Part shown: one piece after another, positions 50,865 to 64,000 of the stretch
Numbering within the stretch: position 1 is the stretch's first letter
Layout: every line of letters begins with the position of its first letter
NCBI RefSeq assembly: GCF_002909485.1
Contig: NZ_PPXG01000002.1
Span: 434,001 to 498,000, forward strand
Direction of reading: 5' to 3'
From: Stutzerimonas stutzeri
Lineage (GTDB): Bacteria; Pseudomonadota; Gammaproteobacteria; Pseudomonadales; Pseudomonadaceae
Length of the DNA: 64,000 nucleotides
Made by a program: the position numbers and the translations under genes
Notes under the pieces: model-generated
What the model was told of the DNA's origin: nothing
The model's input: only the letters and a program-made list of their open reading frames with translations
Database searches by the model: none

Positions 50865-50950
50865 TGGGAGATTCTGTGCTCCCAGTCGTAAAGCAACGCC
50901 GCGAGGCTGGGCCGCCCACCGCACCAGTGGGAGGCGCGCCCTCACGGCGA
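50865..50950. repeat. REP/BIME element between icp and lon2
   Basis: GTGGGAGGCGCGCCCTC (50927 onwards, ending near 50950) is a REP core, and a diverged inverted copy lies at 50896-50919. TGGGAG (50865-50870) pairs with CTCCCA (50879-50884) as a further hairpin. The core resembles the units in the BIME cluster at 57682-58008. Confidence 0.65.
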
Positions 50951-54385: not shown

Positions 54386-54509
54386 AGAACGGCCCGTCTT
54401 GCAGACCCTACATTCCGTCTCCCGACCTGGCTCTTCGTCTTGTGCTGCACCATCAGCCTGGCCGTGGACTAGACCTATAAGCAGACACAACTCACAAGAG
54501 GAGCGGCGC

Positions 54510-57500
54510 ATGTTCAAGGCCGGTCACGTGCTGGATGGCGCCTTCGCCAACCAGAAAGCCGCGGAATTCTTTCCCGCCATCAGCGGCAACTACGCCGTTG
54601 ACGAGGCGCAATATCTCACCGAGCTGCTGCAGCTTGCCGATCCTGGGGAGGCGGGCATTGCCGCCATTCGCGAGCGAGCGCGCAGCCTGATCGAGGCGGT
54701 GCGCGGCCGTGACAACGCGGTCGACACCCTCGATGCGCTGCTGCGTCAGTACAGCCTGGATACCCAGGAAGGGCTGATGCTGATGTGCCTGGCCGAAGCG
54801 CTGCTGCGGGTGCCGGATGCCGCCACGGCTGACGCGCTGATTCGCGACAAGCTCAACGCCGCCGAATGGGAACGTCACCTCGGCCAGAGCGACAACGTGC
54901 TGGTTAATTTCGCCGCCTGGGGGCTGGTGATGACCGGCAAGGTGGTCGATCCGGAAACCGCCGATGGTCGTCCGAAGAACGTCATCGGCCGCCTGCTCAA
55001 GCGCTCCGGCGAGCCAGTGATTCGCAGCGCGATGAACCAGGCGATGAAGCTGATGGGCAAGCAGTTCGTGCTTGGCCGTACCATTTCCGAAGCCTTGAAG
55101 AACGGTCGTCCCGAGCGCGAGAAGGGCTACACCTATTCCTTCGATATGCTCGGTGAGGCGGCGCTGACCGCCGAAGACGCCGCCAAGTACATGGCCGACT
55201 ACCGTCAGGCCGTGGAAACCGTGGGCGCCGAGCCGCAGGTCGGCAAGGGCCCGCGTCCGTCGGTGTCGATCAAGTTGTCGGCGCTGCATCCGCGTTATGA
55301 AGTTGCCCAGCGTGAGCGCGTGCTCACCGAGCTGTTCGGCAGTGTTCGTGAGCTGGCCGTGCTGGCCCGTCAGCGGGATGTCGGGATCACCATTGATGCC
55401 GAGGAAGCAGATCGGCTCGAGCTGTCTCTGGAGCTGTACGAAAAGCTTCTGCGCGACCCAGCCATTGCTGGTTGGGGCGAGTTCGGCCTGGTCATCCAGG
55501 CGTACTCCAAGCGTTGCCTGCCAGTGCTGGTCTGGCTGACCCTGCTCGGCCGCGAGCTCGGCGAGCGTATTCCGCTGCGCCTGGTCAAGGGCGCCTACTG
55601 GGACAGCGAGATCAAGCAGTGCCAGGTTCAGGGTCTGGACGGCTACCCGGTCTACACCCGCAAGGAAGGCACCGACACCTCGTATCTCGCCTGCGCGCGC
55701 TACCTGCTGTCCGAGCACACCCGTGGGGTGATCTACCCGCAGTTCGCCAGCCATAACGCGCACACGGTCAGCTGCATTCTGGCCATGGCCGAGGAAACGG
55801 CGCAGCCACGCGAGTTCGAGTTCCAGCGTCTGCACGGCATGGGCGATGCCCTTTACGACACGGTGATCGAGAAGTACGCCCGCAACGTACGGATCTACGC
55901 CCCGGTCGGTGCGCACAAGGACTTGCTGCCCTATCTGGTGCGTCGCCTGCTGGAGAACGGTGCGAACTCGTCGTTCGTCCACCAGCTGGTCGACCCGCGC
56001 GTGCCGGTCGAATCGCTGATCGATCACCCGGTAACCCAGCTACGCAGATTCGCCGCACTGGGCAACCCGCGCATTCCGCTGCCGTCGGCGCTGTTCGGCA
56101 ATCGCAAGAACTCCCAAGGGATCAACATGAATATCCAGAACCAATGGAACGACCTGGCCAGCGCCTACCAACCTTTCCTCGAGCGCCAGTGGCAGGCTGC
56201 GCCGGTCATCAGCGGGCAGGGGCTCGCCGGTACGCCGTCCGAGGTGCGTTGCCCCTATGACCTGAACAAGGTTGTCGGCCACGCCCAGTTCGCCAGCGCC
56301 GAGCAGGCGCGCCAGGCTGTCGATCGGCTGGCGGCTTACTGGCCAACCTGGAATGCCACGCCGGTGGAAGCCCGTGCCGCCGTACTGGAACGTCTGGGCG
56401 ATCTGCTGGAGCAGCACCGCGCCGAGTTGATGGCGCTGTGTACCGTGGAAGCCGGTAAGTCGCTGCAAGACGGTATCGACGAAGTGCGCGAGGCGGTGGA
56501 TTTCTGCCGTTACTACGCTCAGCAGGCTCGGCAGAAGCTCGGTCGCGAAGAGTTGAAAGGCCCGACCGGCGAGCGTAACGAGCTGTTCCACGAGGGCCGC
56601 GGCGTGTTTGTCTGCGTCAGCCCGTGGAACTTCCCGCTGGCGATTTACCTCGGCCAGATCACCGCGGCGCTGGTCGCCGGCAATACCGTGCTGGCCAAAC
56701 CGGCCGAACAGACCAGCCTGATCGCCGCGCGTGCGCTGGAACTGATGTTTGAAGCCGGATTGCCGAAGGAAGCGATCGCCTTCCTGCCGGGCGATGGCGC
56801 TACCCTGGGCGGCGTGTTCTGCCGCGATCCGCGCGTGGTCGGCGTGTGCTTCACCGGTTCCACCGACACGGCGCGCATCATCAATCGCCAGCTGGCCGAG
56901 AAGGAGGGCCCGATCGCCACGCTGATCGCCGAGACCGGCGGACAGAACGCGATGATCGTCGACTCCACGGCGCTGCCCGAGCAGGTGATCAAGGATGCCG
57001 TCGGCTCCGCCTTCACCAGTGCCGGCCAGCGTTGTTCGGCCTTGCGCGTGCTTTACGTGCAGCGTGATATCGCCGACCGCGTGATCGAGCTGCTCAAGGG
57101 CGCCATGGCCGAGCTGAACGTCGGCCCGACCCATCTGCGCGAGAACGACATCGGTCCGGTGATCGATCAGGAAGCCCGCGAAGGCCTGCTGGCGCATATC
57201 CAGCAGCTCAAGAGCGAAGGGCGTCTGATCGCCGAAGCGACATTGCCGGCTGGTCTGAACGGCCACTTCGTGGCGCCGGTTGCCTTCGAGATCGACGGTA
57301 TCCACCAGCTCAAGAAGGAACAGTTCGGCCCAGTACTGCACGTGGTGCGCTACGACGCGGCGGATCTGGAAAAGGTCGTCGGGGCGATCAACGGCACCGG
57401 CTACGGCCTGACCCTTGGCGTGCACAGTCGTAATGAGGAAACCGCGGCGCGCATCGAGCAGCTGGCGCGGGTCGGCAACCTGTACGTCAACCGCAACCAG

Positions 57501-57671
57501 ATTGGCGCCGTGGTCGGCGTGCAGCCGTTCGGCGGTTGCGGCCTTTCCGGTACTGGCCCGAAGGCTGGTGGCCCCAGCTACGTGCTGCGCTTCGCCAATG
57601 AGCGCACCACCTCCATCAACACCACTGCGGTGGGCGGTAATGCCTCCCTGCTGTCGCTTGGAGACGATTGA
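54510..57671 (+). CDS. putA: bifunctional proline dehydrogenase / glutamate-semialdehyde dehydrogenase PutA
   Basis: A 1053-residue enzyme that oxidises proline to glutamate. The FAD-dependent proline dehydrogenase barrel covers about residues 170-490 (GKGPRPSVSIKLSALHPRYE and LRLVKGAYWDSEIK). The aldehyde dehydrogenase covers about 570-1040, with PWNFPLAIYLGQITAALVAGN, ETGGQNAMIV and the catalytic Cys in SAGQRCSALR. It lacks the N-terminal ribbon-helix-helix DNA-binding domain of E. coli and P. putida PutA, so it cannot regulate itself; a separate PruR fits. ATG at 54510 follows AGAGGAGCGGCGC. Confidence 0.97.
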   Translation: MFKAGHVLDGAFANQKAAEFFPAISGNYAVDEAQYLTELLQLADPGEAGIAAIRERARSLIEAVRGRDNAVDTLDALLRQYSLDTQEGLMLMCLAEALLRVPDAATADALIRDKLNAAEWERHLGQSDNVLVNFAAWGLVMTGKVVDPETADGRPKNVIGRLLKRSGEPVIRSAMNQAMKLMGKQFVLGRTISEALKNGRPEREKGYTYSFDMLGEAALTAEDAAKYMADYRQAVETVGAEPQVGKGPRPSVSIKLSALHPRYEVAQRERVLTELFGSVRELAVLARQRDVGITIDAEEADRLELSLELYEKLLRDPAIAGWGEFGLVIQAYSKRCLPVLVWLTLLGRELGERIPLRLVKGAYWDSEIKQCQVQGLDGYPVYTRKEGTDTSYLACARYLLSEHTRGVIYPQFASHNAHTVSCILAMAEETAQPREFEFQRLHGMGDALYDTVIEKYARNVRIYAPVGAHKDLLPYLVRRLLENGANSSFVHQLVDPRVPVESLIDHPVTQLRRFAALGNPRIPLPSALFGNRKNSQGINMNIQNQWNDLASAYQPFLERQWQAAPVISGQGLAGTPSEVRCPYDLNKVVGHAQFASAEQARQAVDRLAAYWPTWNATPVEARAAVLERLGDLLEQHRAELMALCTVEAGKSLQDGIDEVREAVDFCRYYAQQARQKLGREELKGPTGERNELFHEGRGVFVCVSPWNFPLAIYLGQITAALVAGNTVLAKPAEQTSLIAARALELMFEAGLPKEAIAFLPGDGATLGGVFCRDPRVVGVCFTGSTDTARIINRQLAEKEGPIATLIAETGGQNAMIVDSTALPEQVIKDAVGSAFTSAGQRCSALRVLYVQRDIADRVIELLKGAMAELNVGPTHLRENDIGPVIDQEAREGLLAHIQQLKSEGRLIAEATLPAGLNGHFVAPVAFEIDGIHQLKKEQFGPVLHVVRYDAADLEKVVGAINGTGYGLTLGVHSRNEETAARIEQLARVGNLYVNRNQIGAVVGVQPFGGCGLSGTGPKAGGPSYVLRFANERTTSINTTAVGGNASLLSLGDD

Positions 57672-58216
57672 ACGGGGTGGCAGGCCTTGCGGCCTGCAAT
57701 CGCCGCGAGGGCGCGCCTCCCACTGGGGGCGGTTTACGTCGGCAGCTTTTGTGGGAGGCCCGACCCGGGGCGTGGGTTAGCGATTTGGGTAGGCCTTGCG
57801 GTCTGTAATCGGCGCGAGGGCGCGCCTTCCACCGGGTGCGGTGTACGTCAGCTGCTTTTGTGGAAGGCCCGTTCCGCGGCGCTGATTAGTGCTTTGGGTA
57901 GGCCTTGCGGTCTTTAATCGGCGCGAGGGCGCGCCTCCCACCGGGGTGCGGCGTACGCCGGCTGCTTTTGTGGGAGGCCCGACCCCGGGGCGATGCTTTT
58001 AGCGGGCGGTGATGGTCTTGGCTATCCACCCTGCGAGAACGGCGGCTTAAGGCCGCCGAACACAACAAAAATTGGACAGTCGGCGGACGCTCTTCCGCCA
58101 CTGACGGGCCCGGGTTGGGCCTGTCGCAGGTGATGGCCTTTTCGCTATCGCCCTCTGCCAAGGTGCCGCGCGGGTCCGCTCGCGTTGCGCCGAACAACAA
58201 CTAACGAGGGACACAC
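57672..58216. other. putA-putP intergenic region
   Basis: This 545-base gap has no protein gene. The first 330 bases are the BIME cluster; the rest has GGCGGC/GCCGCC and GGCGGA/TCCGCC small hairpins (around 58042-58100) and ends with a ribosome site (ACGAGGG) before putP. No clear promoter box is visible. Confidence 0.7.
57682..58008. repeat. three-unit tandem BIME/REP cluster, 109-bp period
   Basis: AGGCCTTGCGG starts three units at 57682, 57791 and 57900. Each unit has an inverted REP (with GGGCGCGCCTCCCAC form) and, about 30 bases on, a forward REP (GTGGGAGGCCCG form). The stem CCTCCCAC/GTGGGAGG is at 57716/57751 and 57934/57970; in unit 2 it becomes CCTTCCAC/GTGGAAGG at 57825/57860, a compensatory change. 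Pseudomonads use such arrays as gyrase, IHF or mRNA-end sites. Confidence 0.85.
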
Positions 58217-59701
58217 ATGAGCATCAGTACACCCACTCTGATCACCTTCCTGATCTACATCGCGGCAATGATCCTGATCGGTTTCGTCGCCTATCGCGCC
58301 ACCAAGAACTTCGACGATTACATCCTCGGCGGTCGCAGCCTCGGCAGCTTCGTCACTGCGCTGTCGGCCGGTGCCTCCGACATGAGCGGCTGGCTGCTGA
58401 TGGGCTTGCCCGGTGCGATCTTCGTCGCCGGTCTGTCGGAAAGCTGGATTGCCATCGGCCTGATCGTTGGCGCCTGGCTCAACTGGCTGTTCGTCGCCGG
58501 ACGGTTGCGTGTGCACACCGAGCACAACCACAACGCCCTGACACTGCCGGATTACTTCTCGCACCGTTTCGAGGACGAGAGCCGCATGTTGCGGATCTTC
58601 TCCGCACTGGTGATCCTGGTTTTCTTCACCATCTACTGCGCCTCGGGCGTGGTGGCGGGTGCGCGGCTGTTCGAGAGCAGCTTTGGTGTGCCTTACGAGT
58701 ACGCACTGTGGATTGGCGCCGCGGCGACTATCCTCTACGTGTTCATCGGCGGCTTTCTGGCAGTCAGCTGGACCGATACCGTACAGGCCACACTGATGAT
58801 TTTCGCGCTGCTGATCACGCCAGTGTTCGTCATCCTGGCACTGGGTGACATGGGCGCGGCAATGGATACCATCGCCACCCAGAATCCGGCTGCCTTCGAT
58901 ATGTTCAGCGGATTGAGCTTCGTCGCGATCATCTCGCTGCTGGCGTGGGGCCTTGGCTACTTCGGCCAGCCGCACATCCTGGTGCGCTTCATGGCGGCTG
59001 ACTCGATCAAGACCATCCCCAACGCTCGCCGCATTGGCATGGCCTGGATGATCCTGACGTTGGCCGGCGCGGTCGCGGTAGGGTTCTTCGGTATCGCCTA
59101 CTTTGCCGGGCATCCGGAGCTGGCTGGGCCGGTCACCCAGAACGGTGAGCGTGTGTTCCTCGAACTGGTGAAGATCCTCTTCAACCCTTGGGTTGCGGGC
59201 ATCATCCTCTCCGGCGTACTGGCGGCGGTGATGAGTACCCTCAGTGCCCAGCTTCTGGTCAGCTCCAGCGCGCTGACGCAGGACTTCTACAAAGCAATGC
59301 TGCGCAAGAACGCCTCGCAGACCGAGCTGGTCTGGGTCGGCCGCGCGATGGTGCTGCTGATCGCGCTGATAGCCATTGGCATCGCATCCAACCCGGAAAG
59401 CAAGGTGCTGGGCCTGGTGTCCTACGCCTGGGCCGGCTTCGGCGCTGCGTTCGGTCCGGTGGTGCTGATCTCGCTGCTGTGGAAGCGCATGACGCGCAAC
59501 GGCGCGCTGGTCGGCATGCTGGTGGGTGCGATCACCGTAGTGGTGTGGAAGGAATTCATTGGCCTCGGGCTGTACGAAATCATCCCGGGCTTCATCCTCG
59601 CCAGCATTGCCATCTTTGTCGTGAGCAAGATGGGCGCCGAGCCGGCCCCGACCATTATCAAGCGCTTCGAAGAAGCGGACGCGGATTACCACGCGGGCTG
59701 A
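58217..59701 (+). CDS. putP: sodium/proline symporter PutP (copy 1)
   Basis: A 494-residue SSS-family transporter with about 13 membrane helices. GGRSLGSFVTALSAGASDMSGW (split by a loop) and SQLL-type sodium-site residues appear as SAGASDMSGWLLMGLPGA. ILVRFMAADS and LSAQLLVSSSALTQDFY are later signatures. It imports proline with Na+ for PutA. The ribosome site is AACGAGGGACACAC. A near-identical second copy lies 3 kb downstream. Confidence 0.97.
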   Translation: MSISTPTLITFLIYIAAMILIGFVAYRATKNFDDYILGGRSLGSFVTALSAGASDMSGWLLMGLPGAIFVAGLSESWIAIGLIVGAWLNWLFVAGRLRVHTEHNHNALTLPDYFSHRFEDESRMLRIFSALVILVFFTIYCASGVVAGARLFESSFGVPYEYALWIGAAATILYVFIGGFLAVSWTDTVQATLMIFALLITPVFVILALGDMGAAMDTIATQNPAAFDMFSGLSFVAIISLLAWGLGYFGQPHILVRFMAADSIKTIPNARRIGMAWMILTLAGAVAVGFFGIAYFAGHPELAGPVTQNGERVFLELVKILFNPWVAGIILSGVLAAVMSTLSAQLLVSSSALTQDFYKAMLRKNASQTELVWVGRAMVLLIALIAIGIASNPESKVLGLVSYAWAGFGAAFGPVVLISLLWKRMTRNGALVGMLVGAITVVVWKEFIGLGLYEIIPGFILASIAIFVVSKMGAEPAPTIIKRFEEADADYHAG

Positions 59702-59709
59702 GGTAGAGC

Positions 59710-59741
59710 GTGCAGGTTGAGCGTCTTCGCTTAACCTGCAC
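59710..59741 (+). terminator. hairpin after putP1
   Basis: GTGCAGGTTGAGCG (59710-59723) pairs with CGCTTAACCTGCAC (59728-59741) over 14 positions with one wobble and a TCTT loop. No T run follows, so it may be a 3'-end stabiliser rather than a full terminator. Confidence 0.6.
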
Positions 59742-59800
59742 CTCATTGCGGTCGATAGCGCTCTGTGGCCCACCGAGGGAGTATAGGCATACAGGACGAG

Positions 59801-59820
59801 TGGTGGGCTTCGGCCCACCG
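59801..59820. repeat. TTCG-tetraloop hairpin
   Basis: GGTGGGC (59802-59808) pairs perfectly with GCCCACC (59813-59819) around TTCG, forming the very stable C(UUCG)G tetraloop. No T run follows. Confidence 0.6.
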
Positions 59821-59916
59821 CTCTGGCGCCACCCCCAGGGTGAATTTCTCTCAAAAACTGACCATCTTGAACTCACACGGGCTCATCGCGAGCGGTGCAA
59901 GCCTACGCCCGCAGTT

Positions 59917-59945
59917 TTGGCCATTCACGGCACAATGGCTAGGCT
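59917..59945 (+). promoter_or_regulatory. possible promoter of a small RNA
   Basis: TTGGCC (59917-59922) and TAGGCT (59940-59945) are 17 bases apart, with a predicted start near 59952. Both boxes match consensus only in part. Confidence 0.35.
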
Positions 59946-59951
59946 TTAGAT

Positions 59952-60029
59952 GAGAGGAAGAGCGCGCGTTGGCGAACCCTGAGTTCGCCCGAATGGCCGA
60001 TGCCCCGGCTAAGCCGGGGTTTTGTTTTT
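59952..60029 (+). ncRNA. candidate small RNA with terminal hairpin
   Basis: About 78 bases. GGCGAAC (59971-59977) pairs with GTTCGCC (59983-59989), then CCCCGGC (60003-60009) pairs with GCCGGGG (60013-60019) followed by TTTTGTTTTT. The T run sits on the plus strand, so it does not serve the convergent small gene, while putP ends 300 bases earlier with its own hairpin. Confidence 0.4.
60003..60029 (+). terminator. plus-strand intrinsic terminator
   Basis: CCCCGGC-TAA-GCCGGGG followed by TTTTGTTTTT. It would end putP read-through or a small RNA. Confidence 0.8.
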
Positions 60030-60039
60030 CTGGTCGGGA

Positions 60040-60264
60040 TCAGTCGTCAGCTACCAGATTGGATCGGTCGTCCACCGCGCCCGCCGCAATCAAATGTTCG
60101 GCTTCGTCTTCCGGTACATGGATGCTGGTGCCGTCGATATTCATTACCGACATCCGCGCCTCAGGATCGGTGGTAATGCGTACGTCCATCAGGGCGCTAC
60201 GGTGCGTGTTGCCTTTGATGACCACGCAGCAGGTACCGGTGGTGGTGTCGATGTCTACGGTCAT
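60040..60264 (-). CDS. small DUF3203-like protein
   Basis: A 74-residue acidic protein (MTVDIDTTTGTCCVVIKG at its start, VPEDEAEHLIAAGAVDDR near its end). The shape, with a small beta-sheet then an acidic helix, and the Pseudomonas context fit the DUF3203 family, which has no known function. Assignment is from memory of the family and moderate. GGGAGATAGATC precedes the ATG. The gene is divergent from the zinc-type receptor and shares its operator region. Confidence 0.65.
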   Translation of the reverse strand: MTVDIDTTTGTCCVVIKGNTHRSALMDVRITTDPEARMSVMNIDGTSIHVPEDEAEHLIAAGAVDDRSNLVADD

Positions 60265-60369
60265 GATCTATCTCCCGAAGCGGTGCAAAGCCGCACGCGG
60301 GTCGCACGGCGTTTCCATTTGGACCACGAACAACGTGCATCCGTTGTGCTGTCACTGGAAAAACAGGCT

Positions 60370-60392
60370 TAAACGTTACGATATAACATGTT
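60370..60392. promoter_or_regulatory. Zur-type zinc operator
   Basis: The core GTTACGATATAACAT (60375-60389) matches the Zur box GTTATANTATAACAT except at two positions, and 16 of 22 defined bases of the extended palindrome agree. It lies 98 bases before the TonB receptor and 106 bases before the divergent small gene. Confidence 0.7.
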
Positions 60393-60410
60393 AGATTCTC
60401 GCCCCGCGAA

Positions 60411-60469
60411 GTCGGCCCGTTCAAGAGGGCCGACGCACAGCCGTCTTCGGTTGCCTTGAAAAGGCAACC
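60411..60469 (+). promoter_or_regulatory. two stem-loops in the receptor leader
   Basis: GTCGGCCC (60411-60418) pairs with GGGCCGAC (60427-60434). GGTTGCCTT (60449-60457) pairs with AAGGCAACC (60461-60469) around GAA. Both are perfect and lie between the Zur site and the ribosome site, with no T run. Confidence 0.6.
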
Positions 60470-60489
60470 GCCACTGTCTGGAGAGTCAC

Positions 60490-62508
60490 ATGAAACTGAA
60501 GCGTCATCCCCTGGCCTGGGCGATCAGCCTGGCTCTGGTACCGGCTGCCTGGGCTGCTGACCCGGTCGAACTGCAATCCGTCGTGGTCAGCGCCAGCGGC
60601 CTGGCCAAGCAGAGCCACGAGATGACCACTCCGGCCGCCGTGATGGAGGGTGACGAGCTGGTGCTGCGCCGCGAAGCGACTCTCGGTGAAACCCTGGAAA
60701 GCGTACCCGGCGTACGTTCCAGCAGCTTCGGAGCCGGTGCGGCGCGTCCGGTGATTCGCGGGCTGGACGGCGCGCGGGTCAAGGTGCTGAGCGATGGCGT
60801 GGAGCTGCTCGATGCATCCACCATCAGCCCCGATCATGCAGTGACCAGCGAGCCGCTGCTCGCCGAGCGCATTGAAGTGCTCAAGGGGCCGGCGACGCTG
60901 TTGTACGGCGGAGGTGCCATCGGTGGCGTGGTCAATGTGATCGACAAGAAGATTCCCACCCGCGTTCCGGAGAAGGGCTACGAGGGCGAGCTGGAGCTGC
61001 GCGCCAATAGCGTGGCCAACGAGGGCGCCGGTGTCTTCGGCATCACCGCTGGTAGCGGCAACTTCGCCGTGCGCGCCGAAGGTACCAAGCGCCAGGCCGA
61101 CCCGTATGAAATCCCCGGTTCGCCGGACAAGCAGGAAGGCTCCTACAACGACACCGACAGCTTCAACTTGGGTGCCAGCTTCATCGGCGAGCGCGGCTAC
61201 ATCGGCATGGCTTACGGCGAGCAGAACAATCGCTACGGGCTGTTGGCCCACGAGCACGCCGATTGCCACACCCACGGCAGCGACTGGCACTGCGGTGGTC
61301 ATGATGACCATGACGATGATGACCACGACGACCATGAACATGGCAGCGTGCCCTACGTCGACATGCGCCAGAAGCGCTGGGACCTGCGTGGTGAACTGAG
61401 CGACCCGCTACCTGGCTTCGAGCTGGCGCGGTTGCGCGTCGGCCACAGCGACTATCAGCACAAGGAGATCGAAGGGGGCGAAGTGGGCACCCGCTTCAAC
61501 AACGACGCCACCGACGCGCGCCTGGAGCTGACCCATCAGCCGCTGTTCGGCTGGCGTGGTGTGCTCGGTGCACAAACCCAGCGTCGCGACTTCGAGGCCC
61601 TAGGAGAAGAGGCCTACGTGCCGCAGACGCTAACGCGCAACCACGGTCTGTTCCTGCTCGAGGAATACACCGCTGGTGCCTGGCGCTACGAGCTCGGCCT
61701 GCGCCATGAATGGCAGGACATTGATGCCGACGGCCGTCCGGATACCGATCACAGTGGCACCTCGATGTCGGCCGGTGCGGTCTGGACGTTCGCGCCGCAG
61801 TATTCGCTGGGCTTCTCGCTGACGCGCTCGCAGCGTCTGCCTACGGCCGAGGAGCTTTACGCCAACGGCCCGCATGCGGCGACCCGCACGGTCGAGTTGG
61901 GCAACGTCGATCTCGAAGAAGAAACCTCGCACAACGCCGAAATAACCCTGCGCAAGTTCGCCGGCCGGACGACCTTCAGCCTAAGTGTGTTCCGCAACGA
62001 GGTGGATGACTTCATCTATGCTGCCGACACCGGTAACGACATCGGCGGGGGCTACCGCGAAATCGAGTACCGCCAGCAGGACGCCGTGCTTACTGGCGCA
62101 GAAGGGGAGGCGCGCTTCCAGGCGACCGACGCTACCGCCTTCACCCTGTTCGGCGACCACGTGCGCGGCAAGTTGCGCGATGGCGGCGGCGACCTGCCGC
62201 GTATTCCCGCCGATCGATTGGGCGTGCGGGTGGATCAGAGCTTCACGCCGGCGCTCAACGGCCAGCTGGAGTTCTATCGCGTGCAGCGCCAGGACGAGCT
62301 GGCCGACTACGAAAGCGAAACCGGCGGCTACAACATGCTCGGCGCGAGCCTGGGTTACAGCGGTTCGCTGAACCAGACGAACTACCTGCTGTACCTCAAG
62401 GCCAACAACCTGCTGGATGAGAAGGCCCGCCAGCACACGTCCTTCATCAAAGACGAGGTGTTGCTGCCCGGGCGCAACCTGACGGTGGGCGTGCGCCTGG
62501 CGTTCTAA
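60490..62508 (+). CDS. TonB-dependent outer-membrane receptor, ZnuD-like (zinc)
   Basis: A 672-residue receptor with a signal peptide ending AWA-ADPVEL at about residue 22, a plug domain (ETLESVPGVRSSSFGAGAARPVIRGLDGARVKVLSDG in pieces) and a 22-strand barrel ending NLTVGVRLAF, with terminal Phe. Residues about 253-285 are a His/Asp-rich extracellular loop (HEHADCHTHG, HDDHDDDDHDDHEH), like the zinc-capturing loop of ZnuD. It sits downstream of a Zur-like box. GGAGAGTCAC precedes the ATG. Zinc as ligand is inferred; the same locus in P. aeruginosa (PA0781) is zinc-repressed. Confidence 0.9.
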   Translation: MKLKRHPLAWAISLALVPAAWAADPVELQSVVVSASGLAKQSHEMTTPAAVMEGDELVLRREATLGETLESVPGVRSSSFGAGAARPVIRGLDGARVKVLSDGVELLDASTISPDHAVTSEPLLAERIEVLKGPATLLYGGGAIGGVVNVIDKKIPTRVPEKGYEGELELRANSVANEGAGVFGITAGSGNFAVRAEGTKRQADPYEIPGSPDKQEGSYNDTDSFNLGASFIGERGYIGMAYGEQNNRYGLLAHEHADCHTHGSDWHCGGHDDHDDDDHDDHEHGSVPYVDMRQKRWDLRGELSDPLPGFELARLRVGHSDYQHKEIEGGEVGTRFNNDATDARLELTHQPLFGWRGVLGAQTQRRDFEALGEEAYVPQTLTRNHGLFLLEEYTAGAWRYELGLRHEWQDIDADGRPDTDHSGTSMSAGAVWTFAPQYSLGFSLTRSQRLPTAEELYANGPHAATRTVELGNVDLEEETSHNAEITLRKFAGRTTFSLSVFRNEVDDFIYAADTGNDIGGGYREIEYRQQDAVLTGAEGEARFQATDATAFTLFGDHVRGKLRDGGGDLPRIPADRLGVRVDQSFTPALNGQLEFYRVQRQDELADYESETGGYNMLGASLGYSGSLNQTNYLLYLKANNLLDEKARQHTSFIKDEVLLPGRNLTVGVRLAF

Positions 62509-62534
62509 GGCAAGCAAGTCTCCTGCAGCAATCT

Positions 62535-62563
62535 CGAGGGCCGGCAGCTACTGTCGGCCCTCG
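62535..62563 (+). terminator. hairpin after the TonB receptor
   Basis: CGAGGGCCGGCAG (62535-62547) pairs with CTGTCGGCCCTCG (62551-62563) around CTA, with one wobble pair. The T run is weak (TTCGTTA). Confidence 0.65.
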
Positions 62564-62721
62564 TTCGTTAAGGAAGGCGGTCTGGCATGCAGAACCTCGC
62601 GGTCACGCGCAAGTACGCTGATGACGCGCTATCCTTGCGTCCCTCGATTGTTCCGTTGCGGGTGCCGGTCGTTGTCCGCGCTGGCAATGGAATGTCAGGA
62701 CCAACAAGGAAAACAAGTCCC

Positions 62722-64000
62722 ATGAACGTCAGCACACCCACTCTGATCACTTTCGTGGTCTACATCGCGGCGATGATCCTGATCGGCTTCATCGCCTATC
62801 GCGCCACCAAGAACTTCTCTGACTACATCCTCGGCGGCCGCAGCCTCGGCAGCTTCGTCACGGCGCTGTCGGCCGGCGCCTCTGACATGAGTGGCTGGCT
62901 GCTGATGGGCCTTCCCGGCGCAATTTTCGTCGCCGGCCTGTCGGAAAGCTGGATCGCCATCGGCCTGATCGTTGGCGCCTGGTTGAACTGGATCTTCGTC
63001 GCCGGCCGGTTGCGTGTGCACACCGAGCACAACCACAACGCCCTGACCCTACCGGACTACTTCTCGCACCGCTTCGAGGACGAGAGCCGCATGCTGCGGA
63101 TCTTCTCCGCGCTGGTGATCCTGGTGTTCTTCACCATCTACTGCGCCTCGGGCGTAGTGGCCGGCGCGCGGTTGTTCGAGTCCACCTTCGGCATGCCATA
63201 CGAATACGCCCTGTGGGTCGGTGCGGCGGCGACCATCCTCTATGTGTTCATCGGCGGTTTCCTTGCCGTGAGCTGGACTGACACCGTCCAGGCCACACTG
63301 ATGATCTTTGCGCTGCTGATCACGCCAGTGTTCGTCATCCTGGCTCTGGGCGACATGGGCACTGCGATGGCCACCATCGAGGCGCAGAACCCGGCCAACT
63401 TCGACATGTTCCGTGGGCTTTCCTTCGTTGCGATCATATCGCTGCTGGCATGGGGTCTCGGTTACTTTGGCCAGCCGCACATCCTGGTGCGTTTCATGGC
63501 CGCCGACTCGATCAAGACCATCCCCAACGCTCGCCGCATCGGCATGACCTGGATGATCCTGACGCTGGCTGGCGCCGTCGCGGTGGGCTTCCTCGGCATC
63601 GCCTATTTCGCCGACCACCCGGATCAGGCTGGTGCGGTCACCCAGAACGGGGAGCGCGTATTCATGGAACTGGTGAAGATCCTGTTCAATCCGTGGGTCG
63701 CCGGCATCATCCTTTCCGGCGTACTGGCGGCGGTGATGAGTACGCTCAGTGCGCAGCTGCTGGTCAGCTCCAGCGCGCTGACGCAGGACTTCTATAAAGC
63801 GATGCTGCGCAAGAATGCCTCGCAGACCGAACTGGTCTGGGTCGGCCGCGGCATGGTGCTGTTGATCGCCCTGATCGCCATCGGCATCGCCTCCAACCCG
63901 GAGAGCAAGGTGCTGGGCTTGGTGTCCTACGCTTGGGCCGGCTTCGGCGCGGCGTTCGGTCCGGTGGTGCTGATTTCGCTGCTGTGGAAGCGCATGACCC
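62722..64000 (+). CDS. putP: sodium/proline symporter PutP (copy 2), cut by window end
   Basis: The frame starts at the ATG at 62722 (after AAGGAAAACAAGTCCC) and runs out of the window after 426 codons. The protein begins MNVSTPTLITF and follows copy 1 closely along its whole visible length, with scattered changes such as LNWIFV for LNWLFV and the loop DHPDQAGAV for GHPELAGPV. The DNA is also very similar, so this is a duplication. The C-terminal end is not visible. Confidence 0.96.
   Translation, partial: MNVSTPTLITFVVYIAAMILIGFIAYRATKNFSDYILGGRSLGSFVTALSAGASDMSGWLLMGLPGAIFVAGLSESWIAIGLIVGAWLNWIFVAGRLRVHTEHNHNALTLPDYFSHRFEDESRMLRIFSALVILVFFTIYCASGVVAGARLFESTFGMPYEYALWVGAAATILYVFIGGFLAVSWTDTVQATLMIFALLITPVFVILALGDMGTAMATIEAQNPANFDMFRGLSFVAIISLLAWGLGYFGQPHILVRFMAADSIKTIPNARRIGMTWMILTLAGAVAVGFLGIAYFADHPDQAGAVTQNGERVFMELVKILFNPWVAGIILSGVLAAVMSTLSAQLLVSSSALTQDFYKAMLRKNASQTELVWVGRGMVLLIALIAIGIASNPESKVLGLVSYAWAGFGAAFGPVVLISLLWKRMT

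Follow-up and report, generated by a model that had tools for sequence, protein, structure and literature searches.

An array of inverted REP doublets between putA and putP

The window, i.e. the whole stretch of 64,000 nucleotides of Stutzerimonas stutzeri DNA that was analysed, carries putA followed by putP on the same strand. The spacer between the putA stop and the putP start holds two kinds of feature, namely an extragenic array of three tandem units of ~109 bases (57679-58005) and, outside the array, a conserved putP leader (Table 1). Each unit contains two inverted REPs separated by 27-28 bases, the left one on the minus strand and the right one on the plus strand. The left halves of successive units lie 109 and 109 bases apart and the right halves 109 and 110 bases apart, and the units are 83-90% identical in pairwise comparisons. 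A BIME cluster had been placed at 57682-58008 in the original prediction; the three units are real, with two inverted REPs each, and their arrangement as tandem inverted REP doublets upholds the BIME identity, the interval itself being 3 bases off. Each unit also starts with a small hairpin absent from the earlier description (in unit 1, GCAGGCC-TTGC-GGCCTGC at 57680-57697), and C>T differences that distinguish unit 1 from the other two units make G-T wobbles of some of its pairs.

Table 1. Coordinates of the features of the putA-putP region and of a related repeat in the window
Feature	Position	Strand	Remarks
Compact REP doublet of the array's family	50898-50949		6-base spacer; R1 match C16:484891-484951, E 5.6e-7
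putA	54507-57671	+	Upstream neighbour; NF008869, 1622.9 bits (cut-off 747); 54507 is the start of the tested stretch
BIME unit 1	57679-57787	+	Small hairpin, left REP 57701-57723 (minus strand), 27-base spacer, right REP 57751-57773; R1 match 78.3 bits
Unit 1 stem	57716-57723 / 57751-57758		CCTCCCAC / GTGGGAGG
BIME unit 2	57788-57896	+	Left REP 57810-57832 (minus strand), right REP 57860-57882; bears the paired change; R1 match 66.3 bits
Unit 2 stem	57825-57832 / 57860-57867		CCTTCCAC / GTGGAAGG
C>T, left arm	57828	+	Private to unit 2
G>A, right arm	57864	+	Private to unit 2; partner of 57828
BIME unit 3	57897-58005	+	Left REP 57919-57941 (minus strand), 28-base spacer, right REP 57970-57992; R1 match 86.4 bits
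Unit 3 stem	57934-57941 / 57970-57977		CCTCCCAC / GTGGGAGG
Conserved putP leader	58074-58216	+	Predicted structured; outside the BIME
putP	58217-59701	+	Downstream neighbour; TIGR02121, 735.5 bits (cut-off 515.5)

In the predicted RNA folds the two REP heads were paired as a stem in six out of six cases (three units on two strands), giving the long hairpin that is typical of REPINs. Compared with dinucleotide shuffles the folds showed a mild excess of stability only, the z scores of units 1 to 3 being -1.90, -2.46 and -1.34 on the plus strand and -3.37, -1.95 and -0.99 on the minus strand. Elsewhere in the window, the compact REP doublet listed in Table 1 lies directly past the 3′ end of a minus-strand gene, which we take to be lon.

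A RAYT-linked repeat family

The 330 bases of the array gave 45 other matches in their own genome at E < 1e-3, which rules out a chance repeat. Using a covariance model (R1), at least 49 units of the family were recognized in this Stutzerimonas genome, at many sites and often in tandem. Nearly all of the aligned units have a GTAG or GTGG head, in agreement with the short imperfect palindromes of REPs, and the opposed REP pair within each module and the tandem succession of modules are equally characteristic of BIMEs. R1 was built from 41 units and contains one wrong pair (16-68 for 17-67); the pairing counts on the 41-unit alignment use the corrected structure. The 41-unit alignment goes back to 69 matches on both strands, which were reduced to 40 by dropping opposite-strand readings and to which unit 2 was added by hand (39 distinct sequences). 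For counting, the best 150 of 289 matches (both orientations) were aligned and one opposite-strand duplicate was dropped, leaving 149 units, 49 of them from this genome; the 145 distinct ones span four genomes. From the relatives, 54 chosen stretches were used out of the matches listed.

The genome encodes two Y1_Tnp genes, both scoring above the cut-off of 80 bits of NF047646 (REP-associated tyrosine transposase, RAYT). One of them, at C26:16590-17033 (133.6 bits), is surrounded by repeats of the array's family, with four units immediately upstream of the gene, two immediately downstream and another six ~2.3 kb further on. A RAYT flanked by REPs of its own family is a hallmark of REP/BIME systems, and judging from these flanks the gene is the likely cognate of the family. 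The original prediction had proposed looking for further units in the genome and for a RAYT gene, and both were found. The other gene, C27:74901 (L032:1417-2007, 189.6 bits), was set aside as the cognate RAYT; its 3.3-kb locus contained no arm with a match to the two REP patterns of the array's family.

Among relatives, copy number tracks the cognate RAYT, as it does in other REP/BIME families. The five searched genomes with a RAYT homologue of at least 73% identity gave 36 to 150 R1 matches (E <= 1e-4, both orientations), that is 36 in G033 (97% identity), 39 in G006 (86%, with one internal stop), 95 in G043 (81%), 150 in G035 (74%; this equals the number of candidates scored, so the figure is at least 150) and 88 in G050 (73%). 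By comparison, 16 other genomes of the genus gave 0 to 4 matches, 13 of them being devoid of a RAYT homologue at E <= 1e-20 and three having homologues of 48-62% identity; G024, G026, G027, G036 and G038, with homologues of 65-73%, were left out of this repeat search. We therefore regard the array, with a probability of roughly 0.85, as an ordinary BIME composed of REPIN-like doublets in tandem, whose family has its likely cognate RAYT elsewhere in the same genome.

Comparison with known systems

BIMEs, REPIN clusters and their association with RAYTs are already known, and the family of the array is a further RAYT-linked repeat family. In the parts compared here, the account of REPIN clusters in P. 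fluorescens SBW25 (Bertels and Rainey 2011, PMC3116915) describes inverted REP doublets with a spacer and predicted hairpins, as well as tandem units with flanks, some of them beside a RAYT gene, all as in the present array. The SBW25 REP sequence is different, however, and in the array the left and right REPs also differ from each other. The same survey, as far as its compared sections go, included a single P. stutzeri genome and reported it to be free of REPINs, whereas REP doublets are abundant in the Stutzerimonas genomes considered here. In the BIMEs described together with RAYTs by Nunvar et al. (2010, PMC2817692), two different REPs alternate in tandem modules and also flank the RAYT, as they do here; the alternation of Y and Z2 in E. 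coli resembles the array, and copy number follows the RAYT in both cases. None of the REPs in the compared part of Table 1 of that paper is identical to the REP of the array, and the family is not named in the compared parts of these two BIME and REPIN papers. The GTAG-24 repeats of P. stutzeri (PMC3733652, in part) have a GTRG head followed by a palindrome, like the array, and come from the same species group, a likeness by description only; unlike the array, they are mostly single elements.

History of the site among relatives

A close PutA was found in 49 of the 56 genomes of the genus, and the 30 putA-putP spacers that came with the loci were compared. Three of these contain units of the family, three in this genome, a single one in G006 and two decayed ones in G043, whereas no family unit was seen in the other 27 of the 30 spacers read. 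The covariance model concurs on the units of the G006 and G043 spacers, and the 3′ flank of the G006 unit is similar to that in this genome. Unit 1 is nearest to the single G006 unit (92 of 103 aligned bases identical), and units 2 and 3 are nearest to each other (93 of 103). The occurrence of one, two decayed and three copies at one site, together with this pattern of nearness, suggests that a single insertion after the putA stop codon was later amplified locally. That is, a doublet would have been inserted just past the stop codon in the ancestor of a few species, presumably through RAYT-driven copying, and would have been amplified to three units in this lineage, where the units may now be decaying through point mutation. 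The presence and absence of units among species is consistent with RAYT-driven mobility. The spacer of G033, on the other hand, lacks a unit although the RAYT of this genome is 97% identical, a finding that counts against this explanation. At the same place after putA, two other loci, L051 and L056 (in G028 and G011, respectively), were seen by eye to carry a different inverted repeat headed by GTAGGGTGG, and the site may take up repeats repeatedly.

The paired change in unit 2

As originally predicted, the stem of unit 2 differs from those of units 1 and 3 in both arms, through the changes at 57828 and 57864. At six positions where units 1 and 3 agree, unit 2 carries a substitution; two of the six form the pair and the other four (57850, 57872, 57873 and 57877) are unmatched. 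The T-A state at this pair occurs in only one of the 145 distinct units from four genomes. The head pair of the stem is C-G in 79 units and T-G in 55, and the T-G wobble is the commonest head state in three of the four genomes. When the head pair is excluded, 56 stem cells are changed, of which 51 are one-sided (12 of these being G-T wobbles) and five are two-sided, three of the latter being paired. Under random substitution with 6 to 8 changes per unit, a compensated pair arises in 1.0-2.3% of units, and in any of three units in 3-7% of cases. Over 145 units this amounts to a neutral expectation of 1.4-3.3 compensated pairs, if every unit is assumed to bear the substitution load of unit 2. 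The double change in unit 2 thus agrees with what neutral chance would give, and counting over the whole family shows how little weight a paired change across three copies carries. Reading of the sequence also indicates that the change removes one pair from the small hairpin internal to the left REP.

Most simply, the matched change would have arisen by two transitions on the unit 2 branch. Alternatively, a single change may have been copied across to the other arm by template switching, for which an imperfect palindrome offers a route, or by gene conversion between the arms, whatever their function. Such a mechanism is described for compensatory change in hairpins in the compared part of PMC8794818, and the arms, nearly perfect inverted repeats only 27 bases apart, would be well suited to it. 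It left no further footprint, however, the four other private changes being unmatched in the opposite arm, and two transitions suffice, so that we consider a one-step origin rather unlikely. The original prediction had offered either selection for pairing or concerted change of the arms; concerted change through template switching may have taken place and would make selection unnecessary for the paired change.

Possible effects on putA and putP expression

The proline genes putA and putP form an operon in P. aeruginosa (PMC5879082, in part), so that the array could influence their transcript. Within a putAP mRNA its hairpins may shield the putA end or impede transcription, but this would be a side effect. 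A stronger form of this idea, in which the array, by terminating transcription or stabilizing mRNA, reduces putP in comparison with putA in this lineage, would draw on its position in the spacer of such genes, on REPs being said to facilitate Rho-dependent termination (PMC2817692, in part), and on the strong hairpins predicted for the transcribed strand (-52.2 to -57.5 kcal/mol for the plus-strand units, 1.3 to 2.5 sd below dinucleotide shuffles). Yet the terminator scan returned two weak terminator-like matches against 0.7 (sd 1.0) in shuffles, by which an intrinsic terminator was not upheld, and occurrence in 3 of 30 spacers is patchy; a role of this kind is, in our estimation, distinctly unlikely. 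Since the insertion is patchy, the separation of putA from putP that the original prediction had envisaged is also unlikely to go back to an ancestor, judging from the spacers compared: 27 of the 30 have no unit, and it is the leader beside putP that is conserved instead.

Finally, selection could have kept the arms paired, either as an RNA barrier between putA and putP expression or as a single-stranded DNA substrate of the RAYT, unit 2 then being a true compensation. Compensatory changes have already been called common in the REPINs of SBW25 (PMC3116915, in part). With the head pair included, six compensated cells were counted where shuffles gave 2.9 (P 0.026), and shuffles were likewise exceeded by the paired cells (P 0.044) and the Watson-Crick cells (P 0.018); in the 41-unit alignment, 94.4% of stem cells are paired, the number of doubly changed pairs was reached by 24 of 500 shuffles, and the covariation score by 4 of 500. 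Against this, when one unit was kept per locus, five random draws gave P values of 0.03 to 0.63 for compensated cells, and sliding the partner by two columns gave a covariation of 0.091, above the true 0.074, relatedness of the sequences inflating such counts. Because the shuffle tests are borderline and chance predicts about 1.4-3.3 compensated pairs versus the three counted, selection for pairing, which for unit 2 comes down to a single event in a family where 51 of 56 changed cells are one-sided and 55 of 145 units have a T-G wobble as their head pair, is not upheld, and we regard it as very improbable.

A conserved leader upstream of putP

With model R2, a single copy of the leader was found a short distance past the putA match in each of 46 of the 55 genomes of the genus searched. 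There are 23 distinct leaders, of which 22 entered alignment A3 (that of G045, with an insertion, was left out) and 19 alignment A4. In the core alignment (17 distinct sequences among 19 rows), three hairpins are 98-99% paired and show little variation. Double changes affect one core pair and two more pairs in a fourth hairpin. Covariation in the core is weak, the number of doubly changed pairs being reached by 136 of 500 shuffles and the covariation score by 3 of 500. A divergent homologue was found in G138, a genome of another genus, where it immediately precedes a putP with 76% identity. In its second hairpin an A-T pair has become G-C and in its third a T-A pair has become C-G, each with a change in both arms, and its predicted fold is a four-way junction; in the leader of the window the three hairpins are closed by a shorter helix. 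Among the 13 genomes of the genus of G138, 12 gave leader matches only at E 0.015 or worse, and of six weak matches outside Stutzerimonas five were not beside putP. A search of 57000-64000 against Rfam 15 gave no match to the leader at E <= 5; weak matches to BASRCII26, sroD and HOTTIP_2 in that interval lay outside the spacer and below the gathering scores. No literature on a putP leader RNA was found by title and abstract among the matches listed.

The leader is a candidate regulatory RNA, the alternative being that it is conserved as DNA, e.g. for protein sites. Tentatively, and at somewhat less than even odds, we propose that it is this leader, as an undescribed cis-acting RNA tuning PutP translation, and not the array that forms the key element of the spacer. 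A four-way junction would join its three conserved hairpins, and after these would come a fourth hairpin, a AACAACAAC stretch and a GAGGG resembling a Shine-Dalgarno sequence. An invariant CCCTC might compete for this GAGGG; the CCCTC-GAGGG pairing is predicted to cost 4.9 kcal/mol. PutP translation might be tuned to proline, to sodium or to a protein such as Hfq/Crc, which we assume to be a possible protein signal for this leader, and the BIME, inserted ahead of the leader, would contribute a further stop or pause peculiar to this lineage. The leader could then matter more than the array, as a candidate for RNA control of proline uptake. A two-state switch through the helix GGCGGA/TCTGCC was energetically unsupported, being 5.8 kcal/mol worse than the first hairpin. 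Upstream regions of 17 putP genes, from other genera and from members of the genus without a clear leader, were also compared, and in 11 of them AACAACAA or AAAAACAA is retained a short way ahead of the start, a stretch that we presume to be Hfq/Crc-like.

A second putP-like gene occupies 62722-64000, up to the last base of the window, and its portion inside the window scores 668.7 bits with TIGR02121. The first hairpin of the leader has a single match in the window, before the first putP, and none before this second gene. Between the two putP genes, 60490-62508 encodes a TonB-dependent receptor with a His/Asp-rich stretch, whose nearest NCBIfam model is ZnuD at 630.8 bits, below its cut-off of 950.
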